NCBI RefSeq assembly: GCF_001941505.1 | Contig: NZ_CP009248.1 | Span: 1,984,001 to 2,048,000, forward strand | Direction of reading: 5' to 3' | DNA from: Corynebacterium sphenisci DSM 44792 | Lineage (GTDB): Bacteria; Actinomycetota; Actinomycetes; Mycobacteriales; Mycobacteriaceae | Length of the DNA: 64,000 nt | Part shown: one piece after another, positions 23,024 to 44,616 of the stretch | Layout of the letters: every line of letters begins with the position of its first letter | How positions within the stretch are numbered: position 1 is the first letter of the stretch | The notes under the pieces: model-generated | Databases searched by the model: none | Told to the model about the DNA's origin: nothing | Seen by the model: only the letters and a program-made list of their open reading frames with translations | Program-made: the position numbers and the translations under genes

Positions 23024-23111
23024 GGGTCCACCTCCGTCTTAGTCGACCCTCACCTTAGCGCCGTGGCCGGATCGCCGGAACCCGCCGCGCCGCCCCGTTA
23101 CCCTGGTGCCC

Positions 23112-32496: not shown

Positions 32497-33621
32497 CTAG
32501 ATGAGGCCCAGCTGGGCGGAGCAGGCGGGCCAGGCGCCCCAGCCCTGCCCGGCCTGGACGCGCTCGGCGACCGCGATCTGCTGCTCCCGGCTGGCCTGGC
32601 TGGCCCGCGGGGCGTACTCGGTGCCGCCGTAGGCGGCCCAGGTGGAGTCGGTGAACTGCAGCCCGCCGGAGAAGCCGTTGCCGTTGTCGATGTGCCAGTC
32701 GCCGCCGGACTCGCACTGGGCGAGCTCGTCCCAGACGCCGTAGCCGGCGGCCGGGGCGGCGGGGCGGGCCTTGGTGCCGCGGCGCACCAGGGTGGCGGTG
32801 GCCTCGCGCATCGGCTCCTCGGCGACGACGTCGCGGGCGAGCTCCTCGCCGTCGCGGGTGGTCACCTTGTAGGTGACCCGCTTCTGCCCGGGGACGCCCT
32901 CCTCGATGACCTCCCACTCGTCCTCGAACATCTCCGGGTCCTCGATGACCTCCTCCCCGGGGGCCACCTCGACGTCCTCCACGATCTCGCGCTCGATGAT
33001 CCGGGACACCGCGATGCGCAGGCCCTGCACCACCTTCGTGGCCGGGTCGGGGGTGACGCTGTCGCCGGGGCCGAGCTCGATGCCGCGCATCTTCAGCACC
33101 TCGGCGACGGTGGCCGCGGGCAGGCTCATCCGGGCGACGTGGCCGTCATCGGCGAGCTCGATCTCCTTCGGGGTGGTGATCGCCAGCTCCACCCCGTCGG
33201 CGGGGATCCGGCCGGAGCCGTCGACGGCGGCGCCGTCCAGGTCGGGCAGTTCGGCGAGCATCTCGCGCACGGTGGCGGCGGTGGTGGTCAGCTCCCGGCG
33301 CACCCCGTCGACGACGAGGGTGACCGGCTTGGCGGTGCGCACGATGATCCGGTCGCCGTCGGTGACGGTGTCCTGGGCGATGACCTCGTCGCCGGCGCCG
33401 AGATCGACCTCGGCGGAGTCGAGCACCCGGTCCAGGCCGCCGTAGATGACGGAGACCTGGCGCACCTGGCCGTCGACCTCGACGGTGACGGTCTTCTGGG
33501 TGGCGGCGGCGACCCCGCCGCCGGCGGCCATGGCCACGACCAGGGTGGCGGCCCCGAACTTCATGGGCGCGGCGGCCCGGGTGTTGCGGGGGTTGACGGT
33601 GCGCTTGGCGGTGTTGCTCAC
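32497..33621 (-). CDS. rpf2: Resuscitation-promoting factor Rpf2
   Basis: Secreted or membrane-tethered muralytic factor that promotes exit from dormancy. 374 residues from the GTG at 33621. A signal/anchor helix lies at about 22-41. Then come three DUF348-type repeats (about 45-205: [25 protein letters not shown] and a third), a G5-type domain at about 205-285 and the Rpf lysozyme-like domain from about 294. That domain has the catalytic Glu304 in AQCESGGDW and two Cys. This is the Rpf2 architecture of Corynebacterium. Upstream is a direct-repeat box (33686-33702) compatible with MtrA control; rpf2 is reported as an MtrA target in C. glutamicum. Confidence 0.95.
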
Positions 33622-33685
33622 GTGCGGGGGTTCCTCGGGTGCTCGGGGGCCGCGTGGCCCGGATGCCCCGGGCCCGCGATATCGC

Positions 33686-33702
33686 AATAACAGTACGGTA
33701 AC
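33686..33702. promoter_or_regulatory. 11-base-period direct repeat upstream of rpf2 (MtrA-like box)
   Basis: AATAACAGTACGGTAAC: TAAC half sites start 11 bases apart (33688 and 33699). It lies 65-81 bases upstream of the rpf2 start in an AT-rich patch of a GC-rich gap. Same layout and near-consensus with the boxes before the two SGNH genes. Confidence 0.6.
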
Positions 33703-33819
33703 GGCGCCGCGGCTGTCCACCCCGGTCCGGGGCGATCCGCGCAGCTCAACGCGCATCCGCCCCAGCCGACCCGTCCGCCACATCCGCCACGGCCGCCGGC
33801 GGCGCGGCGCGGGCCCGGC

Positions 33820-34653
33820 TCAGCCCAGGTCGATGCCGTAGATCCGCGCGGCGTTGCCGGTGAGCAGCGCGGCCATCTCCTCGGCGGCGACCCCGCGGAC
33901 CTCCGCCATGCAGCGCACCTGGTGGCCGATGAAGGCCGGCTCATTGCGCGCGCCCCGGTGGGGTTCGGCGGTCATGTAGGGCGCGTCGGTCTCCACCAGC
34001 AGCTGCCCCGCCGGGGCCTCGGCGACCGCGGCGCGCAGGTGGTCGTTGCGCTTGAAGGTGACGTTGCCGGTGAAGGAGAGCACGTAGCCGCGGCCCAGCG
34101 CCTCCCGGGCGACCGCCGGCGGGGAGCTGAAGCAGTGCAGGATCACCGGATGGTCGTAGCCCTCGAGCGCGGCGAGGAGGTCCTCGTCGGCCTCCCGGTT
34201 GTGGATCATCAGCGGTTTGCCGACCTCGCGGGCGAGATCCATATGCCAGCGCAGGGCCTCGAGCTGGGTCCCCCGGTCCGCGCAGCCGTCCATTTTGCCC
34301 AGCCAGTACCAGTCCAGGCCGGTCTCCCCGACGGCGACCACCCGGGGTTCGGCGGCGAGCTCGGCGAGCCGGGCCCGGGCGGCTTCGTCGAGCTCCCCGG
34401 CCCGGGTGGGGTGGATCGCGGCGGCCGCCCACACCCGGTCGTGGCCGCGGGCGGCCGCGGCGGCGAGCTCGGTCTCGGCCAGGCCGTCGCCGACGGTGCA
34501 CACCCCCACCACCCCGGCCGCGGCGGCGCGGTCCATGAGCGCGGCGACGGCCGCGTCATCGCGGGCGCCGCAGGAGGCGAGGTGGGTGTGCGCGTCGAAC
34601 AGCGGCCCCATCGGGGCGGCGGGGCGGGCGACGGGGCGCTTCTTCCTGGACAT
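33820..34653 (-). CDS. tatD: TatD family metal-dependent hydrolase
   Basis: 277 residues of the TatD DNase family. FDAHTHLASCG carries the first metal-binding His pair; EVGKPLMIHNREA, VILHCFSSPPAVA, GYVLSFTGNVTF and LLVETDAPYMTAEPHRG provide the remaining His, His and Asp ligands, with GETGLDWYW the bridging Glu. TatD enzymes are 3'-5' exonucleases or quality-control nucleases. The ATG at 34653 (MSRKKRP) is preferred to earlier in-frame starts, which precede an unconserved leader. First gene of tatD-rpf2-rsmA, though 198 bases separate it from rpf2, which has its own promoter region. Confidence 0.9.
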   Translation of the reverse strand: MSRKKRPVARPAAPMGPLFDAHTHLASCGARDDAAVAALMDRAAAAGVVGVCTVGDGLAETELAAAAARGHDRVWAAAAIHPTRAGELDEAARARLAELAAEPRVVAVGETGLDWYWLGKMDGCADRGTQLEALRWHMDLAREVGKPLMIHNREADEDLLAALEGYDHPVILHCFSSPPAVAREALGRGYVLSFTGNVTFKRNDHLRAAVAEAPAGQLLVETDAPYMTAEPHRGARNEPAFIGHQVRCMAEVRGVAAEEMAALLTGNAARIYGIDLG

Positions 34654-34685
34654 GGGCCCCGAGTGTAGGCGCGGGGCGCGGACAC

Positions 34686-34713
34686 TTGACCTAATGCCCT
34701 TAGCTGTTAGGAT
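34686..34713 (+). promoter_or_regulatory. Promoter with TTAGG-rich operator 1, upstream of the ECF operon
   Basis: TTGACC (34686-34691) and TAGGAT (34708-34713) form a -35/-10 pair with a 16-base spacer. Across this spacer lies the 22-base element 34690-34711: CCTAA at one end, then CCCTTAG, then TGTTAGG, with CCTAA and TTAGG as inverted ends. It matches the element at 37709-37730 in 18 of 22 positions. The TTAGG/CCTAA composition recalls DtxR/IdeR boxes, but it is not the exact consensus. Position over the promoter predicts repression. Confidence 0.6.
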
Positions 34714-34765
34714 AGGCGGGGTTTTCGGGCGCGCCCGCGCCCGCCATGAGAAAGGGGACCACCGC

Positions 34766-35380
34766 ATGGCCACCACGAACACCGCCGTCGCCGCCGGCCG
34801 GCTCGGCACCCGCGACTTCATCAACGTCGGCGTCTTCGCCGCCCTCTACTTCGTCGTCGTCTTCGGCACCGGGATGCTCGGCATCATCGCCCCCTGGGTG
34901 ATGTTCCTCGGCTACGGGCTGGGCATCCTGCTCAACGGCATCGTGATCGCGCTCTACGTCTCCCGCACCCCGAAGTTCGGCGCCCTGGCCCTCATCGGCC
35001 TCGTCAACGGGCTGCTCTTCTGGGCCACCGGGCACCCCTGGTTCACCCCGATCCTCGCCCCGCTGCTGGGCCTGGCCGGCGACGCCATCCTCGCCGCCCG
35101 CCGCCGCGACGGCCTGTCCGCGAAGCGCTTCCCCCTCGCCTACGCGGTGATGAGCCTGTGGTACATGGTGCCGCTGCTGCCCATCGTGCTCGACCCGGCC
35201 GGGTACTGGACCTACGTCGACGAGACCATGGGCGCCGACTACTCGCGGCGGATGCAGGAGCTCTTCCAGGGCTGGGTGCTGCCGGCCTGGGCGGTGGCCG
35301 TGTTCATCCTCGGCCTGCTCGGCGGGCTGCTCGGGGTGCGCGCCACCCGCCGCCACTTCGAGCGCTCCGGTCTGGCGTGA
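34766..35380 (+). CDS. ECF transporter S component, MptD/Trep_Strep-like
   Basis: Substrate-binding membrane subunit of an energy-coupling-factor importer. 204 residues with about six helices: INVGVFAALYFVVVFGTG, WVMFLGYGLGILLNGIVIALYVS, ALALIGLVNGLLFW and others. The FINVGVFAALYF start and the GHPWFTPILAPLLGLAGDAI centre are typical of the MptD/Trep_Strep family of S components, whose ligands are mostly unproven; homologues occur with YbtPQ-like transporters in streptococcal siderophore loci (from memory). ATG at 34766 follows AAAGGGGA. Its stop overlaps the GTG of the next gene by four bases. Confidence 0.88.
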   Translation: MATTNTAVAAGRLGTRDFINVGVFAALYFVVVFGTGMLGIIAPWVMFLGYGLGILLNGIVIALYVSRTPKFGALALIGLVNGLLFWATGHPWFTPILAPLLGLAGDAILAARRRDGLSAKRFPLAYAVMSLWYMVPLLPIVLDPAGYWTYVDETMGADYSRRMQELFQGWVLPAWAVAVFILGLLGGLLGVRATRRHFERSGLA

Positions 35381-36147
35381 CCGGGCCCGCCCCCGCCGCC
35401 GCGGCCGGGGAGGCCGCCGCGGACCCGATCGCCGCCGCCCGGGTGCGCCCGGCGGCCCGCCCGGATCCGCGCACCGTGCTGCTCTTCCTGCTCACCGCGA
35501 ACGTGCTCGCCCTGGGCGCGCCCACCCTGAGCGTGCCCACCGCCGCCTCGGCCTGCGCGGTGGCGCTGCTCGCCGTGGCCGGCCGGCGCCGGGCCGCGGT
35601 GCGCTTCGCCCTGGTCTTCCTGATCTGCTTCGGCGCCGCCGTCGCCGCCCCGCGGCTCGCGGCCAACGGCCTCACCGCGGCGGTGAGCCTCTTCGGCTTC
35701 TGGTTCGGCCGCTTCTCGGTGGCAATCGCCGCCGGCTGGTGGGCGGTGACCTCGCTCAAGCCCACCGAGCTGATCGAGGCGCTGCGCCGGCTGCGGCTGC
35801 CGAACGCGGTGGTGGTGCCGCTGGCGGTGGTGCTGCGCGTCCTGCCGGTGATCGCGGTGGAGGCCGCCGCGGTCATCGACGCGATGACCCTGCGCGGGCT
35901 GCGCCCCGATTCCCGGGGCCTGGCCGCGCATCCGGTGCGCACCGGGGAGCTGGTGCTCATCCCGCTGCTGACCACCGTGGTGCGCGCCGGCGATGAGCTG
36001 GCCGCCGCCGCCATGGTGCGCGGCCTGGGCGCCCCGGGCAGGCCCCGGGGCATCGCCCCGCTGGGCCCGCGCGCCGTCGACGCGGTGGTGCTCGCCATGA
36101 TCGTGGGCCTGCTCGTGGCCAACTACGGCGGCTGGGGGCTGCCGTGA
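35377..36147 (+). CDS. ECF transporter T component (EcfT)
   Basis: Coupling membrane subunit of the ECF importer, 256 residues. Starts with GTG overlapping the previous stop codon (GTGA), a strong sign of coupled translation. The N-terminal 35 residues are Ala/Pro-rich and probably cytosolic. Then come about five helices and two long coupling helices carrying Arg-Gly motifs (MTLRGLRPDSRG and MVRGLGAPGRPRG) that dock into the ATPases, diagnostic of EcfT (CbiQ-like). The next gene overlaps by four bases. Confidence 0.88.
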   Translation: MTGPAPAAAAGEAAADPIAAARVRPAARPDPRTVLLFLLTANVLALGAPTLSVPTAASACAVALLAVAGRRRAAVRFALVFLICFGAAVAAPRLAANGLTAAVSLFGFWFGRFSVAIAAGWWAVTSLKPTELIEALRRLRLPNAVVVPLAVVLRVLPVIAVEAAAVIDAMTLRGLRPDSRGLAAHPVRTGELVLIPLLTTVVRAGDELAAAAMVRGLGAPGRPRGIAPLGPRAVDAVVLAMIVGLLVANYGGWGLP

Positions 36148-37610
36148 GCGCCGGGGCGGATCCCGCGGTGCGGGTCGCCGGGGCGGGGTTCCGCTACGCC
36201 CGCGGCACCGCCGGGGACCTCGCCGCGGAGGGAGTGTCCGGGATCTCCTTCGAGCTCGCCCCGGGCACGGTGACCCTGCTGTGCGGGCCCTCCGGCTCCG
36301 GCAAGACCACCGCGCTGCGGTTGCTCAACGGGCTGGTGCCGCAGTTCCACCGCGGCGAGCTCACCGGGGAGATCACCGTCGCCGGGGAGGCGGTGCCGAA
36401 CCGCCCGCTGCACGAGGCCGGGCGCAGCACCGGGATGGTCTTCCAGAACCCGCGCACCGGCTTCTTCACCGACGCGGTGCTCGCCGAACTGGCCTTCGGC
36501 TCGGAGAACCTGGGCGCCGACCGGGCCACCACGGTCGCCCGGGTGCGCGCCGCCGCGGCCGCCACCGGGGTCACCGGGCTGCTCGGCCGGGGCCTGGGCG
36601 AGCTCTCCGGCGGGCAGACCCAGCAGGTCGCCTTCGCCGCCGCGATCGCCGCCGAGCCACCGGTGCTGCTGCTCGACGAGCCCACCTCGAACCTCTCCGC
36701 CGAGGCGATCGGCCGGCTACGCCGGCTGATCGCGGAGCAGAAGGCCGCGGGCCGGGCGGTGGTCGTCGCCGAGCACCGGCTGCACTTCCTGCGCGATCTG
36801 GTGGACCAGGTGCTGTACTTCCGGAACGGCCGGATCGAGCGCCGCTTCGACGGGGAGTCCTTCTTCGCCCTCGACGAGGCCACCCGGCGCGGCCTCGGCC
36901 TGCGCCGGCTGGCCGCCCCGGAGCGGCCGGCGCCCCCGGCCCCGCCGGCGGAGGCCGCGGCGGACGGCCTGGAGCTGCGCTCGGTGCGCTTCGGCTACCG
37001 GGGCCGGCCGGTGCTGGACATCGACCGGGCGGTGTTCCCGGCCGGCCGGATCACCGCGCTCACCGGGCCCAACGGCTGCGGCAAGACCACCCTGGCCCGG
37101 CTCATCTGCGGGCTGGCGGACCCGGCCCGCGGCGGGGAGATCCGGCTGGCCGGGCGCCGGCTGCGCGGCCCGGCCCGGGCCCGGGCCAGCTACATCGTGA
37201 TGCAGGACGTGGGCCGGCAGCTCTTCGCCGACACCGTCGCCCACGAGGTCACCCTGGGCCTGGACCGCGCCGCCGCGGCCGCGGTGGACGTCGCCGGGCT
37301 GCTCGCCGACCTGGATCTCGCCGGGCTGCAGGACCGGCATCCGCAGTCGCTCTCCGGCGGGCAGCGCCAGCGCCTGGTGCTCGCCTCGGCGCTGGCCCAG
37401 GACAAGCGGGTGCACATCCTCGACGAGCCGACCTCCGGGGTGGGCCGGGCGCATCTGGAGGCGATCGCCGCCCGGATGCGGGCCCTGGCCGATGCCGGGT
37501 CGGTGGTGGTCGTGGTCACCCATGACGAGGAGCTGATCGAGGCCTGCGCCGATCATGAGGTGCACCTGCCGGCGGTGAACCGGGTGGCCGGGCCGGGTTC
37601 GCCGCGCTGA
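36144..37610 (+). CDS. ECF transporter ATPase, two ABC domains fused
   Basis: 488 residues holding both ATPases of an ECF transporter in one chain. Domain 1: Walker A GPSGSGKTT, FQNPRTGFF (Q-loop), signature LSGGQTQQV, Walker B LLLDEPTSNL. Domain 2: GPNGCGKTT, MQDVGRQLF, LSGGQRQRL, HILDEPTSGVG. FQNP and the Gln after VMQD are EcfA-type grooves for EcfT. EcfA1 and EcfA2 are usually separate genes; the fusion fixes them as an asymmetric dimer. GTG start overlaps the EcfT stop (GTGA). Confidence 0.92.
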   Translation: MSAGADPAVRVAGAGFRYARGTAGDLAAEGVSGISFELAPGTVTLLCGPSGSGKTTALRLLNGLVPQFHRGELTGEITVAGEAVPNRPLHEAGRSTGMVFQNPRTGFFTDAVLAELAFGSENLGADRATTVARVRAAAAATGVTGLLGRGLGELSGGQTQQVAFAAAIAAEPPVLLLDEPTSNLSAEAIGRLRRLIAEQKAAGRAVVVAEHRLHFLRDLVDQVLYFRNGRIERRFDGESFFALDEATRRGLGLRRLAAPERPAPPAPPAEAAADGLELRSVRFGYRGRPVLDIDRAVFPAGRITALTGPNGCGKTTLARLICGLADPARGGEIRLAGRRLRGPARARASYIVMQDVGRQLFADTVAHEVTLGLDRAAAAAVDVAGLLADLDLAGLQDRHPQSLSGGQRQRLVLASALAQDKRVHILDEPTSGVGRAHLEAIAARMRALADAGSVVVVVTHDEELIEACADHEVHLPAVNRVAGPGSPR

Positions 37611-37708
37611 GCCCGCCGCGGGCCGCCACCGCCGCGGGCGCCCGCCCTGCCACCGCGCATCCCCGCCGCCGGGAAGCGTCGCGGAAAAATACATCGCACA
37701 CCCTTCCC

Positions 37709-37732
37709 ACTAAGCCCCTTAGGTGTTAGGTT
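37709..37732 (+). promoter_or_regulatory. Promoter region with TTAGG-rich operator 2, upstream of the ABC pair
   Basis: The element 37709-37730 reads ACTAAGCCCCTTAG followed by GTGTTAGG; within it CTAAG and CTTAG are an exact inverted pair. 18 of 22 bases equal those of operator 1. TAGGTT (37727-37732) is a possible -10 overlapping its end. It lies about 30 bases before the first ABC half-transporter. Confidence 0.6.
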
Positions 37733-37760
37733 CGGATCACGACACCGGAAAGGGGAGCAC

Positions 37761-39665
37761 ATGAGCAGCAGCGCAGCATCCGCACCACCCGGGCCCGCCC
37801 CGGGCGGCCCGGCCGAACCCGACCCGCGGCCGCCGGCGGGCACCCCGCCGGCGACGGACCCGGCGGCCAAGCGTGCCGCCGGCCAGGCGGCCCTGAAGGA
37901 GCTGCTCGCCCCGGTGCGCGGCCGGCTGTGGCTGGGCCGGATCCTCGGCGCCGCCTCCGGGATCCTGGCCATCGCCCCCTACATCGCCCTGGTCCGCCTC
38001 GGCGAGGTGCTGCTCGCCGCCCGCGCCGCCGGGGTCGCCCCCGACGCCGATCGGGTGCACCGGATCGCGATGCTGCTCATCGGCACCTTCCTCGGCCAGC
38101 TGGTGCTGCTCTTCACCGCCCTGGCCGCCACCCATTTCGCGGATCTGCGGCTCGGCGCCATCCTCCGCGACCGGATCATCGACCGGGTCTCCCGGGCGCC
38201 GCTGTCCTGGTTCACGGAGAAGACCTCCGGGCGGATCCGCAAGGCCGTCCAGGATGACGTGAGCACCCTGCACGCCCTGGTCGCGCATGCCCCGGTGGAC
38301 ACCACCGTCGCCGTGGTCACCCCGCTGGCCCTGGTCGGCTACGCGATGAGCATCGACTGGCGCCTGGGCCTGCTCACCATCGCCATGATCCCCATCTACC
38401 TGGGGCTGCAGGCGCTGATGCTGCGCGGCATGGGCGAGAAGACCGCGGAGATGGACACCCGCCTGGGCCACGTCTCCGCCACCGCGGTGGAGTTCGCCGA
38501 CGGCATCGCCGTGGTGAAGGCCTTCGGGACGGTGGGCCGCTCACACGCCCGCTTCGCGCGGGCCGCCGACGAGTTCGGCGACTTCTACTACGACTGGGTC
38601 AAGCCCATGCTGCGCTCCTCGGCGATTTCGCTGTCCGCGGTCAGCGTGCCGGTGCTGGTGCTCATCAACGTCGCCGGCGGGGCCGCCCTGGTCCGCGCCG
38701 GGGCGGTCGGGCCGGCCGACGTCGTCGCCACCGCGCTCATCGCCCTGGTGCTGCCCGGCAGCATCGAGACCCTGATGAACATGGCCTGGTCCTATGAGCT
38801 GGCGGGGGCGGCGGCGCACCGGCTGCACGAGATCCTGGCCACCGGGGAACTGCCCGCCGGCGAGGCCGAGGCCCCCGCCGGCGCCGGGAGGGTCGAGTTC
38901 CGGGGCGTGGGCTTCTCCTACGGCGAGCACCGCGCCCTGGACGGGGTGGACCTCACGCTCGAACCGGGCACGGTCACCGCGCTGCTCGGCGAATCCGGAT
39001 CCGGCAAATCCACCCTGGCCACCATGCTGGCCCGCTTCCAGGACCCCGACGAGGGCGAGATCCTGCTCGACGGGGCGCCCATCGCCGACCTGCGCCCGGC
39101 GGAGCTCTACCGCCGGGTGGCCTTCGTGCTGCAGGACCCGCAGCTGCCCCGGCTGAGCCTGCGCGAGAACATCGCCCTGGCCCGCCCGGAGGCCACCGAG
39201 GAGGAGATCTGGGCCGCCGCCCGGGACGCCGCCATCGACCAGGAGATCGCCGCCCTGCCGGAGGGCCTGGACACCGTCTACGGGGAGGACTCGGTGCTCT
39301 CCGGTGGGCAGGCACAGCGAATCGCGATCGCCCGCGCCCTGCTCGCCGACGCCGACGTGCTCATCCTCGACGAGGCGATGTCGGCCACCGACCCGGACGC
39401 CCAGGCGGACATCCAGACCGCCCTGAACCGGCTCACCGCCGGGCGCACCGTGCTGGTCATCGCGCACCGCCCGGAATCCGTGCTCGGCGCCGACCAGGTG
39501 GTGGTGCTCGACCGCGGCCGGGTGGCCGAGCGCCTCGCCGGCGCGGAGATCACCGGATCCGCGCTGCGCCGGATCACGCTCGCCCGCGGCGCCGCCGGCG
39601 CCGCCGACCACGCCGCCGGGGCCGCCCCGGCCGGCGCCGAGGGGAAGGACGCCACCGATGAATGA
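37761..39665 (+). CDS. ABC exporter-fold half-transporter 1 (YbtP/IrtA-like)
   Basis: 634 residues: an Ala/Pro-rich cytosolic N-terminus of about 40, six membrane helices (about 55-330) and an ABC domain (about 365-600). Walker A GESGSGKST, Q-loop VLQDPQL, signature LSGGQAQRI, Walker B VLILDEAMSATD with catalytic Glu present, H-loop AHRPES. No FAD-binding siderophore-interaction domain, unlike IrtA. Exporter-fold half-transporters of the YbtPQ/IrtAB type in fact import iron-siderophores. The ATG at 37761 follows AAAGGGGAG. It overlaps the next gene by eight bases, which indicates a heterodimer. Confidence 0.85.
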   Translation: MSSSAASAPPGPAPGGPAEPDPRPPAGTPPATDPAAKRAAGQAALKELLAPVRGRLWLGRILGAASGILAIAPYIALVRLGEVLLAARAAGVAPDADRVHRIAMLLIGTFLGQLVLLFTALAATHFADLRLGAILRDRIIDRVSRAPLSWFTEKTSGRIRKAVQDDVSTLHALVAHAPVDTTVAVVTPLALVGYAMSIDWRLGLLTIAMIPIYLGLQALMLRGMGEKTAEMDTRLGHVSATAVEFADGIAVVKAFGTVGRSHARFARAADEFGDFYYDWVKPMLRSSAISLSAVSVPVLVLINVAGGAALVRAGAVGPADVVATALIALVLPGSIETLMNMAWSYELAGAAAHRLHEILATGELPAGEAEAPAGAGRVEFRGVGFSYGEHRALDGVDLTLEPGTVTALLGESGSGKSTLATMLARFQDPDEGEILLDGAPIADLRPAELYRRVAFVLQDPQLPRLSLRENIALARPEATEEEIWAAARDAAIDQEIAALPEGLDTVYGEDSVLSGGQAQRIAIARALLADADVLILDEAMSATDPDAQADIQTALNRLTAGRTVLVIAHRPESVLGADQVVVLDRGRVAERLAGAEITGSALRRITLARGAAGAADHAAGAAPAGAEGKDATDE

Positions 39666-41457
39666 GACCACCGCGCACGGCCACGGGGTCGCCGACTGGC
39701 GGGATCCGCTGCTGCTCGGCCGCTACCGGGCCATGATGACCCCCGCGGGGCGCCGGCTGCTCACCCGGGCGCTGATCCTGCACGCCCTCGGCGGGGTGCT
39801 GGAGGGCCTCGGCCTGCTCGCCCTGCTGCCGGCGGCCACGGTGCTCGCCACCGGCTCCCCCTCCCTCGGCCTGGGCCTGGCCGGCTGGCTGTGGGTGCTC
39901 GCCGGACTGGCCGTCGCCGCCGCGGTGCTGCGCTACGCGCAGGCCCGGGTGGGCTACGCCGCGGCCATCGACTTCCTGCGCACCGGGCACCGCGCCATCG
40001 GCGACCAGCTGGCCCGGCTGCCGCTGGGCTGGTTCACCAAGGAGCGCACCGGGGGCCTGTCCCGGCTCATGTCCGACGGGTTCATGGCCGCCGCCGGCGG
40101 GGTGGCGCACATCATGCCGGAGGCGGTGACCTCCGCCTTCGCGGTGCTCACCCTGATCCTCGGCGGCTGGTTCTGGGATCCCCGGATCGGGCTCACCCTC
40201 ACCCTGCTCGCCCCGGTGGCGCTGGCCGCGATGGTCGCCGCCCAGGCGCTCAAGCGCGCCAAGGACCGGCCGATGAGCGCCGCCCAGGCGGAGCTGTCCG
40301 CCCGCCTGGTGGAGTACGCCGCCTGCCAGCCGGCGCTGCGCGCGGCCGGCCGGGCCGAGGACTTCGCGCCCCTGGGCGGGGCCTGCGCCCGGGTGGACCG
40401 GGCCCGGTGGGTGAACATGTGGTGGTCGCTGCTGGCGCTCACCCTCAACGGGATCGTGGTGCAGGCCTTCGTGGTGCTGCTCATCACCGGGGTGGCCGCG
40501 CTGGCGGTGTCCGGGGACGTCGCCCCGGTGCAGGCGGTGGCCTTCATCGGGTTGACCCTGCGGTTCAGCCGCAGTCTGGACGCGATCGGCCGGTTCGTGG
40601 TGAGCATGGAGATCGCCCGGCCCCCGCTGGAGGAGGCCGGCGCCATCATCGGGGCGCCCGGGCTGCCGGAGCCGGACCCCGCCGCGACCGCGGCGCGCAC
40701 CGCCCCCGGCCGGGTCGAGTTCGACCACGTCACCTTCGGCTACGACCCGGACCACCCGGTGCTGCGGGATCTCTCCTTCACCGCCGAACCGGGCACGATG
40801 ACCGCCCTGGTGGGGCCCTCGGGCTGCGGCAAGACCACCGTGCACCGGCTGATCTCGAGGTTCTGGGACGTCGACTCCGGCACCGTGCGCGTCGATGGCG
40901 CGGACATCCGGGAGCTGCCCACGGAAACCCTCATGGCGCAGCTCTCCCTGGTCTTCCAGGACGTGTACCTCTTCGACGACACCCTGGAGGCGAACATCCG
41001 GGTGGGCCGGCCGGAGGCCACCGGGGCCGAGGTGCGCGCCGCCGCGGATCTCGCCGGGGTCACCGCGATCGCCGAGCGGCTGCCCGGCGGCTGGGCGGCG
41101 AGGGTCGGCGAGGGCGGCCGGGGCCTGTCCGGCGGGGAGCGCCAGCGCGTCTCCATCGCCCGGGCGCTGCTGAAGAGGGCCCCGATCGTGCTCTTCGACG
41201 AGGCGACCAGCGCCCTGGACGCGGAGAACGAGGCCAACGTCCTGGCCAGCGTGGAGACGCTGCGCGCGGAGTCGACCTTCATCGTGATCGCGCACCGGCT
41301 GGACACCATCCGCGACGCCGACCGGATCATCGTCCTCGACGAGCACGGCCGGGTGGCGGAAACCGGCACCCACGAGCAGCTGCACGCCGCCGGCGGCGCC
41401 TACCGCAGGTTCTGGGACCGCCGGGAGGCCGCCACCGGCTGGACCCTGGCCGGCTGA
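39658..41457 (+). CDS. ABC exporter-fold half-transporter 2 (YbtQ/IrtB-like)
   Basis: 599 residues with six helices (about 30-310) and an ABC domain from about 345. Motifs: Walker A GPSGCGKTT, FQDVYLF, signature LSGGERQRV, Walker B IVLFDEATSALD, H-loop AHRLDT. The catalytic Glu is intact, so the pair has two competent ATP sites. Start ATGAATGA overlaps the previous stop. The N-terminal ALILHALGGVLEGLGLLALLP and the GWFTKERTGG segment before ICL1 are typical of this IrtB-like subgroup. Terminated by a long GC hairpin. Confidence 0.85.
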   Translation: MNETTAHGHGVADWRDPLLLGRYRAMMTPAGRRLLTRALILHALGGVLEGLGLLALLPAATVLATGSPSLGLGLAGWLWVLAGLAVAAAVLRYAQARVGYAAAIDFLRTGHRAIGDQLARLPLGWFTKERTGGLSRLMSDGFMAAAGGVAHIMPEAVTSAFAVLTLILGGWFWDPRIGLTLTLLAPVALAAMVAAQALKRAKDRPMSAAQAELSARLVEYAACQPALRAAGRAEDFAPLGGACARVDRARWVNMWWSLLALTLNGIVVQAFVVLLITGVAALAVSGDVAPVQAVAFIGLTLRFSRSLDAIGRFVVSMEIARPPLEEAGAIIGAPGLPEPDPAATAARTAPGRVEFDHVTFGYDPDHPVLRDLSFTAEPGTMTALVGPSGCGKTTVHRLISRFWDVDSGTVRVDGADIRELPTETLMAQLSLVFQDVYLFDDTLEANIRVGRPEATGAEVRAAADLAGVTAIAERLPGGWAARVGEGGRGLSGGERQRVSIARALLKRAPIVLFDEATSALDAENEANVLASVETLRAESTFIVIAHRLDTIRDADRIIVLDEHGRVAETGTHEQLHAAGGAYRRFWDRREAATGWTLAG

Positions 41458-41495
41458 GCGGGAGCGGCGCCGGTCATGCGAGGCACCCGGGCCCA

Positions 41496-41525
41496 CCCCG
41501 CCCCGGCCCCGCGGCCGGGGCGGGG
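41496..41525 (+). terminator. Terminator after the ABC pair
   Basis: Thirteen-base perfect arms (41496-41508 and 41513-41525) with a four-base loop, 38 bases past the stop codon and before the TetR gene. Confidence 0.65.
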
Positions 41526-41555
41526 GCCGCGGCGGCCCCCGCTAGGATCGTCGGC

Positions 41556-42185
41556 ATGAATGCAGCGCGCGTGGGACGCAAGACCGGTCCGAAGCCCATC
41601 TTCACGCTGGCCGACGTCGAGGCCGCGGCGCTGCGCCTGGGCATCCGGGACTTCACCCTCACCGGGGTCGCCAAGGAGCTCGGGGTGGCCACCCCGAGCC
41701 TGTACCGGGTGGTGGACTCCCGCCAGGACCTGCTCGACCGGCTGCTCGCCCGGCTGGCGGCGGATTTCCGGGTGCCGGATCCGACGCTGTCCTGGCAGGA
41801 CCAGCTGCGCCGCTTCGCCGACGACTGCTGGGCCGGCTACGAGGCGAACCCGGGCCTGGCCGAGGTGCTGCTGGACAACCCCGGGATACACGCGCACATC
41901 CAGGGCTACCTGGACCAGATGGTCACCGGCCTACGCGGCGCCGGCTTCCCCGGCGACGAGGCCCGGATGGAGTTCGCCCTGGACTTCATCGGGGACACCG
42001 CGCTGGTCACCCATATCGCGGTCGCCGCGATCCGCCGGGAGGGGCTGGACGCCGCCCGGGAGCGGATGGACCGGATCCGCCCCGAGGGATCGCGGCGCTT
42101 CGTCCCCGACGACACCTGGCTGGACCGGGGCTTCCTCGACGGCAAGGTCGAGTTCATTATCGCCGGGCTGGAGGCCGGGCACTAG
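41556..42185 (+). CDS. TetR-type transcriptional regulator
   Basis: 209 residues. The N-terminal helix-turn-helix reads FTLTGVAKELGVATPSLYRVVDSRQDLLDRLL, the TetR pattern, at about 30-62. The ligand domain (about 75-205) has no recognisable specificity. It directly follows the ABC pair, so it could sense the same substrate or an iron or heme signal. It is not the expected owner of the TTAGG boxes if those are DtxR sites. ATG at 41556; no strong ribosome site, only GGATC nearby. Confidence 0.88.
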   Translation: MNAARVGRKTGPKPIFTLADVEAAALRLGIRDFTLTGVAKELGVATPSLYRVVDSRQDLLDRLLARLAADFRVPDPTLSWQDQLRRFADDCWAGYEANPGLAEVLLDNPGIHAHIQGYLDQMVTGLRGAGFPGDEARMEFALDFIGDTALVTHIAVAAIRREGLDAARERMDRIRPEGSRRFVPDDTWLDRGFLDGKVEFIIAGLEAGH

Positions 42186-42293
42186 CCGCGCCCGGCGCGC
42201 CCCGCGCCCGCCGCCCGGGCGGGGCATGCCGGAGGTGCCCCTCCCCCATCGACGCGTCCCGCCGACGGGCACACGCCACCGGCACGTGGCCCG

Positions 42294-42343
42294 GACATGC
42301 CCGGACCGCCCCCGCCCCCTTCGGCACGTCCACCGGGCATGTC
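42294..42343. repeat. Inverted repeat in convergent gap
   Basis: Arms GACATGCCCGG (42294-42304) and CCGGGCATGTC (42333-42343) are exact complements around 28 bases, in the 195-base gap between the TetR and metG genes. May be a terminator variant or a protein site. Confidence 0.4.
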
Positions 42344-42354
42344 GCGCCGGCGGG

Positions 42355-42381
42355 GCGCCCCATCCCCGTCGGGGAGGGGCT
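42355..42381 (-). terminator. Likely terminator of metG
   Basis: GCCCC-ATCCCC pairs with GGGGAGGGGC with one bulge, directly downstream of the minus-strand metG stop. Confidence 0.4.
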
Positions 42382-44210
42382 CAGCGCACCACCGGCGCCC
42401 ACTCCGGACCGGTCTCGCCGAGCTCCGGGTCGAGCTTCGCGAACAGCGGCTTCGGCTTGGCCAGGGGCGTGCCCGGGACCATGTCGCGGCGGCCCCAGCG
42501 GGCGGCGCCGGCGGCGTAGTCGCCGCGGATCACCGGGTAGCCGCGGCCGGGCTCCGGCAGGCCCACGCCCACCGGCTGCACCGGCATATCGTCGACGACC
42601 TCGTCGACCCGGGGCATCGCCGCCCACAGGCCCTCCCCGCCGAGGGTCTCGTGCACCTTCTGCGCCGAGGCCGGCAGGAAGGGGGTGAGCATCACGTTGC
42701 AGTCCGCGACGACCTGCAGGGCGGTCCACAGCACGGTGGCCAGGCGCCCCCGGGCCTCGGGGTCCTTCGCCAGCTTCCACGGCTCCTGGGCGGCGATGTA
42801 GGCGTTGGCCTCCCCCACCACGTGCATGATCGCGGTGGTCCCGGTGCGGAAGCGGGAGGCGCCGATGGCCTCCCCGGCGCTGCCGAAGGTGCGCTCGGCG
42901 AGCTCCAGCAGCTCCCGGTCCGCCGCGGTGAGCTCCCCGGGTTCGGGCACCTCGCCGAAGTTCTTGTGCGCCATGGACACGGTGCGGTTGACCAGGTTGC
43001 CCCAGCCGTTGGCCAGCTCGTTGTTCACCCGGCGGACGAACTCGTCCCAGGTGAAGTCGGTGTCCTGGTTCTCCGGACCGGCCACCGCGATGAAGTAGCG
43101 CAGCGGGTCGGCGCCGAACTCGGCGAGGAAGTCCTTGACGTAGATGACCACGCCCTTGGAGGAGGAGAACTTCGACCCGCTCATGGTGAGGTACTCGCTG
43201 GAGACCACCTCGGTGGGCAGCCGCAGTTCGCCGAGCTCGCCGACCTCGCCGCCGCGGGCGCCCTCGCCCCGGTAGCCGAGCAGCTCCGCCGGCCAGATCT
43301 GGGAGTGGAAGGTGATGTTGTCCTTGCCCATGAAGTAGAAGGACCGCGCCTCCGGGTCGTTCCACCAGCGCCGCCAGGCCTCCGGGTCGCCGATCCGGTG
43401 CGCCCATTCGATGGAGGCCGAAAGGTAGCCGACCACGGCGTCGAACCACACGTAGAGCTTCTTCGAGGCCTCCTCGCTCCAGCCCTCCAGGGGGATCGGC
43501 ACCCCCCAGTCGATGTCCCGGCTCATCGCCCGGGGCCGGATGTCCTCGAGCAGGTTGAGGGAGAACTTCAGCACGTTCGGCCGCCAGTCGTCGCGGCCAC
43601 GCAGCCACTCGGCGAGCTTCTCGGCCAGGGCGGGCAGGTCGAGCAGGAAATGCTCGGTCTCCACGAACTCGGGGGTCTCGCCGTTGATCTTGGACACCGG
43701 GTCGATGAGATCGGCCGGGTCGAGCTGGTTGCCGCAGTTGTCGCACTGGTCGCCGCGGGCGCCGCCGGCGCCGCAGATGGGGCAGGTGCCCTCGATGTAG
43801 CGGTCCGGCAGGGTGCGGCCGGTCGAGGGGCTGATCGCGCCCATCATGGTCTCCCGCACCAGGTAGCCGTTGTCGTGCAGGCCCCGGAAGAGCTCCTGCA
43901 CCACCGCGTAGTGGTTGCGGGTGGTGGTGCGGGTGAACAGGTCATAGGACAGGCCCAGCCCGGCGAGGTCCTCGACGATCTGCCGGTTGTACCGGTCGGC
44001 GAGCTCCTGGACGGCGACGCCCTCCTTCTCCGCCTGCACCAGCAGCGGGGTGCCGTGCTCGTCGGTGCCGGAGATCATCAGCACCTCGTTGCCGATCATC
44101 CGCTGGTAGCGGGCGAAGACGTCCGAGGGGACCCCGAACCCGGCGACGTGTCCGATATGGCGGGGACCGTTGGCGTAGGGCCAGGCGACGGCGACGAGGA
44201 TGCGAGACAT
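42381..44210 (-). CDS. metG: Methionyl-tRNA synthetase
   Basis: Charges tRNA-Met. 609 residues. HIGH is present (18-21, RHIGH), the zinc-binding CPICG and CDNCG knuckles lie at about 127-150, and the KMSKS position reads KFSSSKG, a known variant in this class. No C-terminal dimerisation or tRNA-binding domain, consistent with the shorter corynebacterial form. ATG at 44210 ([15 protein letters not shown]) matches the family start. Divergent from the small membrane protein at 44302. Confidence 0.96.
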
Positions 44211-44301
44211 GCCATCCAGGGTAAACCATGGCCCGACCACGGCGGACGCCGCCGCCGGGCCGCCTGCCGCACCTCCCGATTCGGCACCTAGACTCGGCGG
44301 C

Positions 44302-44616
44302 ATGCAGCTGCTCACCCCGATCCTGCTCATCGCGCTGGCCCTGTACACCGCCACCGGCGCTGCGGCCGCCTCCCGCGGCCGGCCGCACCCGATGCTGCCC
44401 GCCGGGATCACCCCGGGGACCCGGGCCACGGTGCTGCTCACCGTCTCCGCGCTGCTGTACACGGTCGCCGCGGCGGTGGTCTACAACGGCCATGTCGGCC
44501 CGGGCCTGGGTGTGGCCCTGGCGGGCCTGGCCGCCTGGGCGGTGGCCTCCCGGGGGATCGGCGCGGACGGGGCGAAGCCCGGCGCCGCCGGCGACGGGAA
44601 GCCGCGCCGGCGATGA
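44302..44616 (+). CDS. Small membrane protein, function unknown
   Basis: 104 residues with three hydrophobic segments (about 3-22, 43-60 and 66-84) and a basic tail. No family recognised. ATG at 44302 ([11 protein letters not shown]) is preferred over an earlier in-frame start inside the metG leader. Its stop overlaps the ATG of the pabB-like gene (ATGA), so the two are translationally coupled. Confidence 0.7.

Follow-up and report, generated by a model that had tools for sequence, protein, structure and literature searches.

The six-gene block described here, in Corynebacterium sphenisci DSM 44792, raises the question of what an ECF-type transporter and a pair of exporter-fold ABC half-transporters do side by side, and of what switches them on and off. 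The block lies in the window, by which we mean the whole 64-kb stretch of DNA that was analysed (GC content 74.9%; genome size 2.59 Mb). Our reading, held tentatively and with slightly less than even confidence, is that it encodes a two-machine system for the uptake of a metal chelate, which has moved from iron control to the control of a local TetR-like regulator.

Two transporters and a regulator gene

Six plus-strand genes, S, T, EcfAA', P, Q and R, lie between metG and the tatD, rpf and ksgA genes (Table 1). Their order, strands and coordinates, the four-base overlaps of S with T and of T with EcfAA', and the overlap of the two half-transporter genes (8 bases, 39658-39665) agree with those given in an earlier note on this DNA. 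EcfAA' and P are separated by a gap of 150 bases, and R is the last gene of the P-Q-R unit.

Table 1. Features of the block and its neighbours, in window coordinates.
Feature	Position	Strand	Basis or comment
Shared element, copy 1	34690..34711	+	inverted repeat CTAA-TGCCC-TTAG (34691-34703), then CTG, TTAGG
S, ECF S component, MptD/Trep_Strep family, 204 aa	34766..35380	+	Pfam, NCBIfam
T, ECF T component (CbiQ/EcfT), 256 aa, GTG start	35377..36147	+	CbiQ match
EcfAA', fused EcfA-EcfA' double ATPase, 488 aa, GTG start	36144..37610	+	two ABC_tran stretches
Shared element, copy 2	37709..37730	+	inverted repeat CTAA-GCCCC-TTAG (37710-37722), then GTG, TTAGG
P, ABC half-transporter 1, IrtA/YbtP-like, 634 aa	37761..39665	+	ABC_membrane and ABC_tran, PDB matches
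Q, ABC half-transporter 2, IrtB/YbtQ-like, 599 aa	39658..41457	+	ABC_membrane and ABC_tran, PDB matches
R, TetR-like regulator, 209 aa, N-terminal RKTGPKP arm	41556..42185	+	phmmer against PDB
metG	42381-44462	minus	neighbour of the block
tatD, rpf, ksgA		minus	neighbours on the other side of the block

S belongs to the Trep_Strep family of Pfam (E 2.4e-50) and to a recognised family of ECF S components, NCBIfam TIGR02185 ('MptD family putative ECF transporter S component'; 98.6 bits against a cut-off of 76.45). Profile searches identified T as a CbiQ protein and found two ABC_tran stretches in EcfAA', and the grouping of dedicated genes for S, T and the ATPase in a single operon, with their short overlaps, is that of a group I ECF transporter. 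The T components of such transporters carry two Arg-Gly motifs, and two are seen by eye in the translation of T (TLRGL and MVRGL). No PDB relative of S was found by sequence, and no assigned ligand for MptD-type ECF transporters was found among the literature matches listed.

The earlier note had likened the half-transporters to YbtPQ and IrtAB, and full-length PDB matches bear out this comparison. P scores 329.8 bits with IrtA (over residues 6-596) and 233.6 bits with chain A of 6p6i, which we take to be YbtP, against at most 216.3 bits for MsbA-type proteins. Q scores 278.2 bits with IrtB, 256.2 bits with chain B of 6p6i (the same subunit as YbtQ in 8vsi) and 247.5 bits with IrtA, and there is no MsbA chain among its best 60 PDB matches. 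Double-length P-glycoprotein-type chains score higher in sum because two stretches add up. In NCBIfam, P is ranked first with MsbA and Q with a glucan exporter, all with scores far below the cut-offs. By PDB bit score, each half-transporter is thus closest to the corresponding subunit, which supports the kinship of P-Q with IrtAB and YbtPQ and the pairing of P with IrtA and of Q with IrtB. IrtA bears an N-terminal siderophore-interaction domain; no such domain was found on P with Pfam. Like IrtAB of mycobacteria and YbtPQ of Yersinia, P-Q would be an exporter-fold heterodimer, but it differs from them in this domain and in being joined to ECF genes and a TetR-like gene.

R scores weakly against both Pfam TetR (17.5 bits, cut-off 24) and NCBIfam MftR2 (30.5 bits, cut-off 285). 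Its PDB matches are TetR-family regulators (phmmer; 1z0x, E 1.7e-5), and it is through these that a TetR-type DNA-binding domain was recognised, Pfam TetR_N being below its cut-off. The sequence TGPKP, present in the N-terminal arm of the window's R, is found near the N-terminus of 30 of 36 R proteins.

Occurrence of the pairing in relatives

The S family was found in 52 of 201 genomes of the genus, in 48 of them above the family cut-off. The 56 stretches compared comprise all S matches in the genus minus the window's own and three second hits within stretches already included. P and Q occur together with S in 47 of these 56, class B loci counted, a check of co-occurrence that the earlier note had proposed. 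Six stretches have S without P-Q, two of which (L064 and L085) end at contig ends; three of the genomes of the other four (L033, L045, L047 and L056) have an orthologous pair elsewhere. In the remaining 3 of the 56, S was not re-found. Two classes of pair were distinguished by the identity of Q, 44-63% in class A, which we consider orthologous, and 37-43% in class B. Two or three S components stand next to a single T-EcfAA' set in L125, L090, L043 and L045, as if one ECF module served several ligands.

Seen from the pair, the association is looser. Class A Q occurs 59 times, the window's own included, in genomes that were also searched for S. By hand tally, S adjoins it in 37 cases, one of them (G046) only as a weak 79-aa frame, and is missing from 21, with one further case cut off. 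In 20 of these 21 S-less stretches, which we examined further, neither S nor T was found, L109 keeps a piece of EcfAA', and R lies near P-Q in 16. Since P-Q pairs are often without S and R is so frequently near them, P-Q-R is a module able to stand alone, of which the MptD-type ECF transporter is, on this genomic comparison, a frequent companion. The two halves, which the earlier note expected to travel together, therefore do so for S, which is usually found beside the pair, and only in part for the pair itself.

Of 89 related loci compared, 11 have metG, tatD or rpf, or more than one of these, within the stretch. Two of these (L103 and L123) have P-Q without ECF genes or R in place of the window's block, with a Q 63% identical to that of the window. 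Set against window positions 32497-44462, they show the same metG/tatD/rpf site occupied by P-Q only, with the closest Q found; we note in passing that ECF and R may have been gained or lost at a single chromosomal place. In L107 (7122-10605), the third-position GC of P-Q is 0.50-0.52, compared with 0.79-0.88 for the outer genes and 0.53-0.68 for the nearest ones, which suggests a recent horizontal transfer.

A scan of named genomes with S gave only three Corynebacterium loci. Across the phylum, the S family occurs in 22 of 396 genomes, the window's genome counted, and 20 stretches selected from 13 other genomes have two half-transporters in 17 cases, one in two (L143 and L145) and none at L137, where each call is a match to profiles built here and no proof of orthology.

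The block has a predecessor in print. The C. jeikeium genes JK0434-0438 appear as an 'ABC transport system' of five genes behind a 19-bp DtxR site, TTAGGTAAGCCTTACCTTT, and as predicted to be DtxR-regulated, in the portion of the 2006 report that concerns us (PMC1382209). The identical site precedes S-T-EcfAA'-P-Q in L036, L037 and L038 and is also found in L128, and the block would therefore already have been listed in 2006 as a predicted DtxR target; from the identity of the site and the number of genes, we infer that JK0434-0438 is the orthologous block. Unlike the window, the matching loci have the iron box, and no R gene was found in them. With this entry, and with S found in about a quarter of the genomes searched, mostly together with the pair, the suggestion that the pairing might be undescribed in Corynebacterium is not supported. 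Among the matches listed, drawn from a literature in which subscription journals are thinly covered, no other Corynebacterium paper on the block was found, apart from this entry in a table and from a report that mentions an irtAB operon for isolates of C. striatum and whose relevant passages are silent on an ECF partner (PMC11271431).

Some class B blocks stand next to NRPS-type genes. Four class B loci were scanned for such neighbours: L060 encodes a thioesterase and a protein that combines two stretches each of the condensation, AMP-binding and carrier types, and L046, L072 and L074 have methyltransferase-thioesterase proteins.

Iron boxes and inverted repeats at the promoters

Potential DtxR boxes were scored with a weight matrix made from 31 C. 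glutamicum sites taken from part of Brune et al., 2006 (PMC1382209), which themselves score 7.6-21.5 bits. The threshold of 15.9 bits is the 99th percentile of 2730 random stretches and is strict because the random set includes true boxes. For each locus the strongest promoter was counted, and loci are called P-Q-only when no S was found in the stretch. Boxes at or above the threshold are present in 24 of 30 ECF loci without R and in 5 of 17 with R; the corresponding figures for P-Q-only loci are 3 of 6 and 3 of 18 (6 of 24 together). None of the 15 class B loci reaches it, counting L135, which is class B by borderline identity and whose score, printed as 15.9, lies just under the threshold. 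At 12 bits or more, 8 of the 17 ECF loci and 5 of the 18 P-Q-only loci among R-bearing relatives have a box. In many class A blocks a strong box lies before the leading gene, irrespective of which gene that is, and in the relatives the block is probably held off by iron-loaded DtxR.

At the two promoters of the window's block no DtxR box was found with the weight matrix, the scores being 2.3 and 2.7 bits. We therefore rejected DtxR as the main control of this block, its best score being 2.7 bits, although TTAGG half-sites are present. In the same genome, which has two matches to the DtxR-type family PF02742, an 18.1-bit box lies directly before a class B half-transporter pair, and two FecCD stretches (L096 and L097) score 14.5 and 13.5 bits. 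The best scores in the other four (L095, L098, L099 and L100) are only 7.0-9.6 bits, and the weak score of the window's block is therefore less telling than it would be in the relatives. An initial DtxR consensus search of this genome gave 2 weak places, compared with 3 and 3 in a reversed control, and was uninformative. The best DtxR-like site in the window (14.8 bits) is at 23039-23057, a few bases before what appears by eye to be a minus-strand start.

What the two units share instead is the 22-base element that the earlier note had pointed out. The two copies are identical at 18 of 22 positions, against a best match of 17 when the two intergenic stretches were shuffled 200 times. Each consists of CTAA-N5-TTAG, three bases and TTAGG. 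This TTAGG overlaps the putative -10, and copy 1 sits between a putative -35 (TTGACC) and -10 (TAGGAT), hexamers that were assigned by eye; TTAGG could be half a DtxR site or merely the -10. A degenerate form of the element matches two places only in the window, with 0 expected, and, allowing up to 3 mismatches, only the same two copies genome-wide (2 forward, 0 reverse; 0 and 1 for the reversed pattern), as for a local regulator. The copies are most likely the candidate operator of R, and the co-regulation of the two units proposed in the earlier note gains support from the sequence. The element before the block is, in its exact form, confined to the C. sphenisci genome among 242 genomes of the genus: the single further match with up to 2 mismatches, in G229, was rejected as a related operator, lying within the 3' end of an open frame and not before the block.

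A more general form of the repeat does recur in relatives. A perfect xxAA-N5-TTxx repeat is present in 14 of 36 promoter regions of R-bearing loci and in none of 37 from loci without R (some loci contributing more than one region), where shuffling predicts 1.6 and 1.9, respectively. This contrast is significant (Fisher 1e-5; 4e-5 excluding the two window regions), on the understanding that the form was defined after inspection of several loci and that many loci are related, L079, L081 and L116 being near copies and L115 and L117 alike. With other spacers of 2-9 bases, repeats occur in 1 to 5 regions with R and in 2 to 9 of the 37 without, and such palindromes are therefore not rare per se. The arms vary in a paired fashion (CTAA/TTAG, CGAA/TTCG, TGAA/TTCA) and reach nine bases in L042 and L112. 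In L065 and L070, CGAA/TTCG replaces the window's CTAA/TTAG at an equal distance to TTAGG. Such a position, 2-3 bases before TTAGG, is found only in the window, in these two loci and in L127; otherwise the repeat lies elsewhere in the region. A perfect repeat is absent from 22 of the 36 regions. Three R loci have several promoter regions (L043, L065 and the window's block), and the window's alone shows the repeat at two of them.

The prediction was recorded beforehand for a held-out set of 13 stretches new to the analysis. The repeat was found in 3 of 5 regions with R and in none of 9 without (p 0.027), two of the three positives resembling earlier loci (L134 and L135). In L127, from the held-out set, a new variant (CCGAA-N5-TTCGG) lies two bases ahead of TTAGG. 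Binding of the repeat by R would be the most economical interpretation; the palindrome at R's own promoter is linked to R through comparison of loci, as an association. Overall, the comparative set shows a contrast between predicted iron boxes and putative TetR operators across a single genus.

Ligand, transport direction and competing explanations

Related combinations have been described in other bacteria. The equibactin locus of S. equi, the closest experimentally tested parallel known to us, combines a YbtPQ-like pair with an importer of three genes within a single siderophore locus; unlike the window's block, it provides for synthesis of the siderophore itself and includes a DtxR-like regulator. 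Passages of the study of this locus describe that deletion of eqbHIJ lowered 55Fe accumulation, most equibactin-dependent accumulation of iron requiring these genes, that loss of eqbHIJ but not of eqbKL prevented a small-colony (iron toxicity) phenotype, and that the eqbKL deletion data suggested siderophore efflux, so that eqbKL may export (PMC3672683). In M. avium ssp. paratuberculosis, IrtAB-like genes adjoin mptDEF, the first gene of which has the same name as the MptD family, and the cluster is metal-controlled: induction of mptA-F by zinc starvation and repression of mptABC by FurB are reported (PMC4298942, PMC4132290). This cluster differs from the window in its three IrtAB-like genes, in the zinc/FurB control of mptABC and in being part of an island with siderophore synthesis genes. 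Bifidobacterium sifABCDE was dropped as a counterpart, being described with FtsX-like permeases. With mpt, eqb and JK0434-0438 in print, the pairing of an ECF transporter with an ABC pair is not new; the transporters are of a known kind, and it is the regulatory wiring that looks new.

The metal-chelate role put forward in the earlier note is supported, by inference, by the predicted DtxR boxes of orthologues and by the NRPS-type genes beside class B blocks. The ligand would be a scarce metal chelate, and a ferric siderophore of foreign origin is the likeliest candidate; because the M. paratuberculosis counterpart answers to zinc, the metal could also be another. The group I ECF transporter would be the likely importer, with S binding the ligand in the membrane, T coupling and EcfAA' burning ATP. 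P-Q would act on the same ligand, either as a second importer, like IrtAB and YbtPQ, or by returning the emptied chelator. Import by the ECF transporter, and import or recycling by P-Q, are proposed by analogy with equibactin. R most likely binds the palindromic element of each unit, which would keep both off until R's own ligand appears. A more detailed and speculative scenario, which we consider somewhat unlikely, is that the block was freed from DtxR and that a ligand-sensing TetR protein captured the ECF genes via an additional copy of its operator; the block would then be on only with a foreign chelate. If this were true, the logic would shift from 'iron short' to 'ligand present'. If R senses the inducer of the block, a compound that frees R from the element would be a strong candidate for the block's ligand.

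These genes could be read differently. Efflux pumps are commonly arranged as a heterodimeric exporter followed by a TetR gene, and P-Q-R might accordingly export drugs or toxic compounds under its own TetR repressor, the ECF genes serving an unrelated nutrient and the element being a duplicated promoter. The many P-Q-R loci without ECF genes and the efflux suggested for eqbKL would suit such an exporter. We nevertheless regard it as unlikely, given that P and Q match IrtA and IrtB over their full length, with MsbA lower for P, that the S family usually adjoins the pair, and that strong DtxR boxes at a quarter of the P-Q-only loci are unexpected for a drug pump. It is similarly doubtful that the element is no operator and that the promoters are alike because one was copied from the other: they do share, by eye, a similar AAAGGGGA ribosome-binding stretch, but the remaining parts of the regions differ to the eye, and relatives with R again show inverted repeats with this spacing, the letters of the arms being others.

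Two further alternatives keep the idea of uptake and change the ligand. An ECF-type heme scavenger is known from Staphylococcus lugdunensis, as part of one report describes (PMC7299338), and the iron control of the relatives would be equally compatible with a heme importer of this kind; we think this quite improbable, the NRPS-type genes that adjoin class B relatives pointing to siderophores instead. A zinc chelate, as suggested for the mpt cluster on the strength of its response to zinc, appears very improbable in view of the predicted iron boxes of the orthologous corynebacterial blocks. We thus keep to a metal chelate, most likely a ferric siderophore, as the ligand of both machines.

C. 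sphenisci also has a second IrtAB-like pair, of class B, at 373-376 kb; FecCD genes lie in the same region, and a 2296-aa NRPS-type frame is about 15 kb off. The earlier note had seen no siderophore synthesis genes in the window; condensation domains, sought genome-wide, turned up only in this NRPS-type frame, far outside the window. The region as a whole (G000:C1:346000-379000; L095 and L096) holds the NRPS-type frame, FecCD genes, a binding protein and the second pair with its DtxR box, and is likely a native siderophore region.
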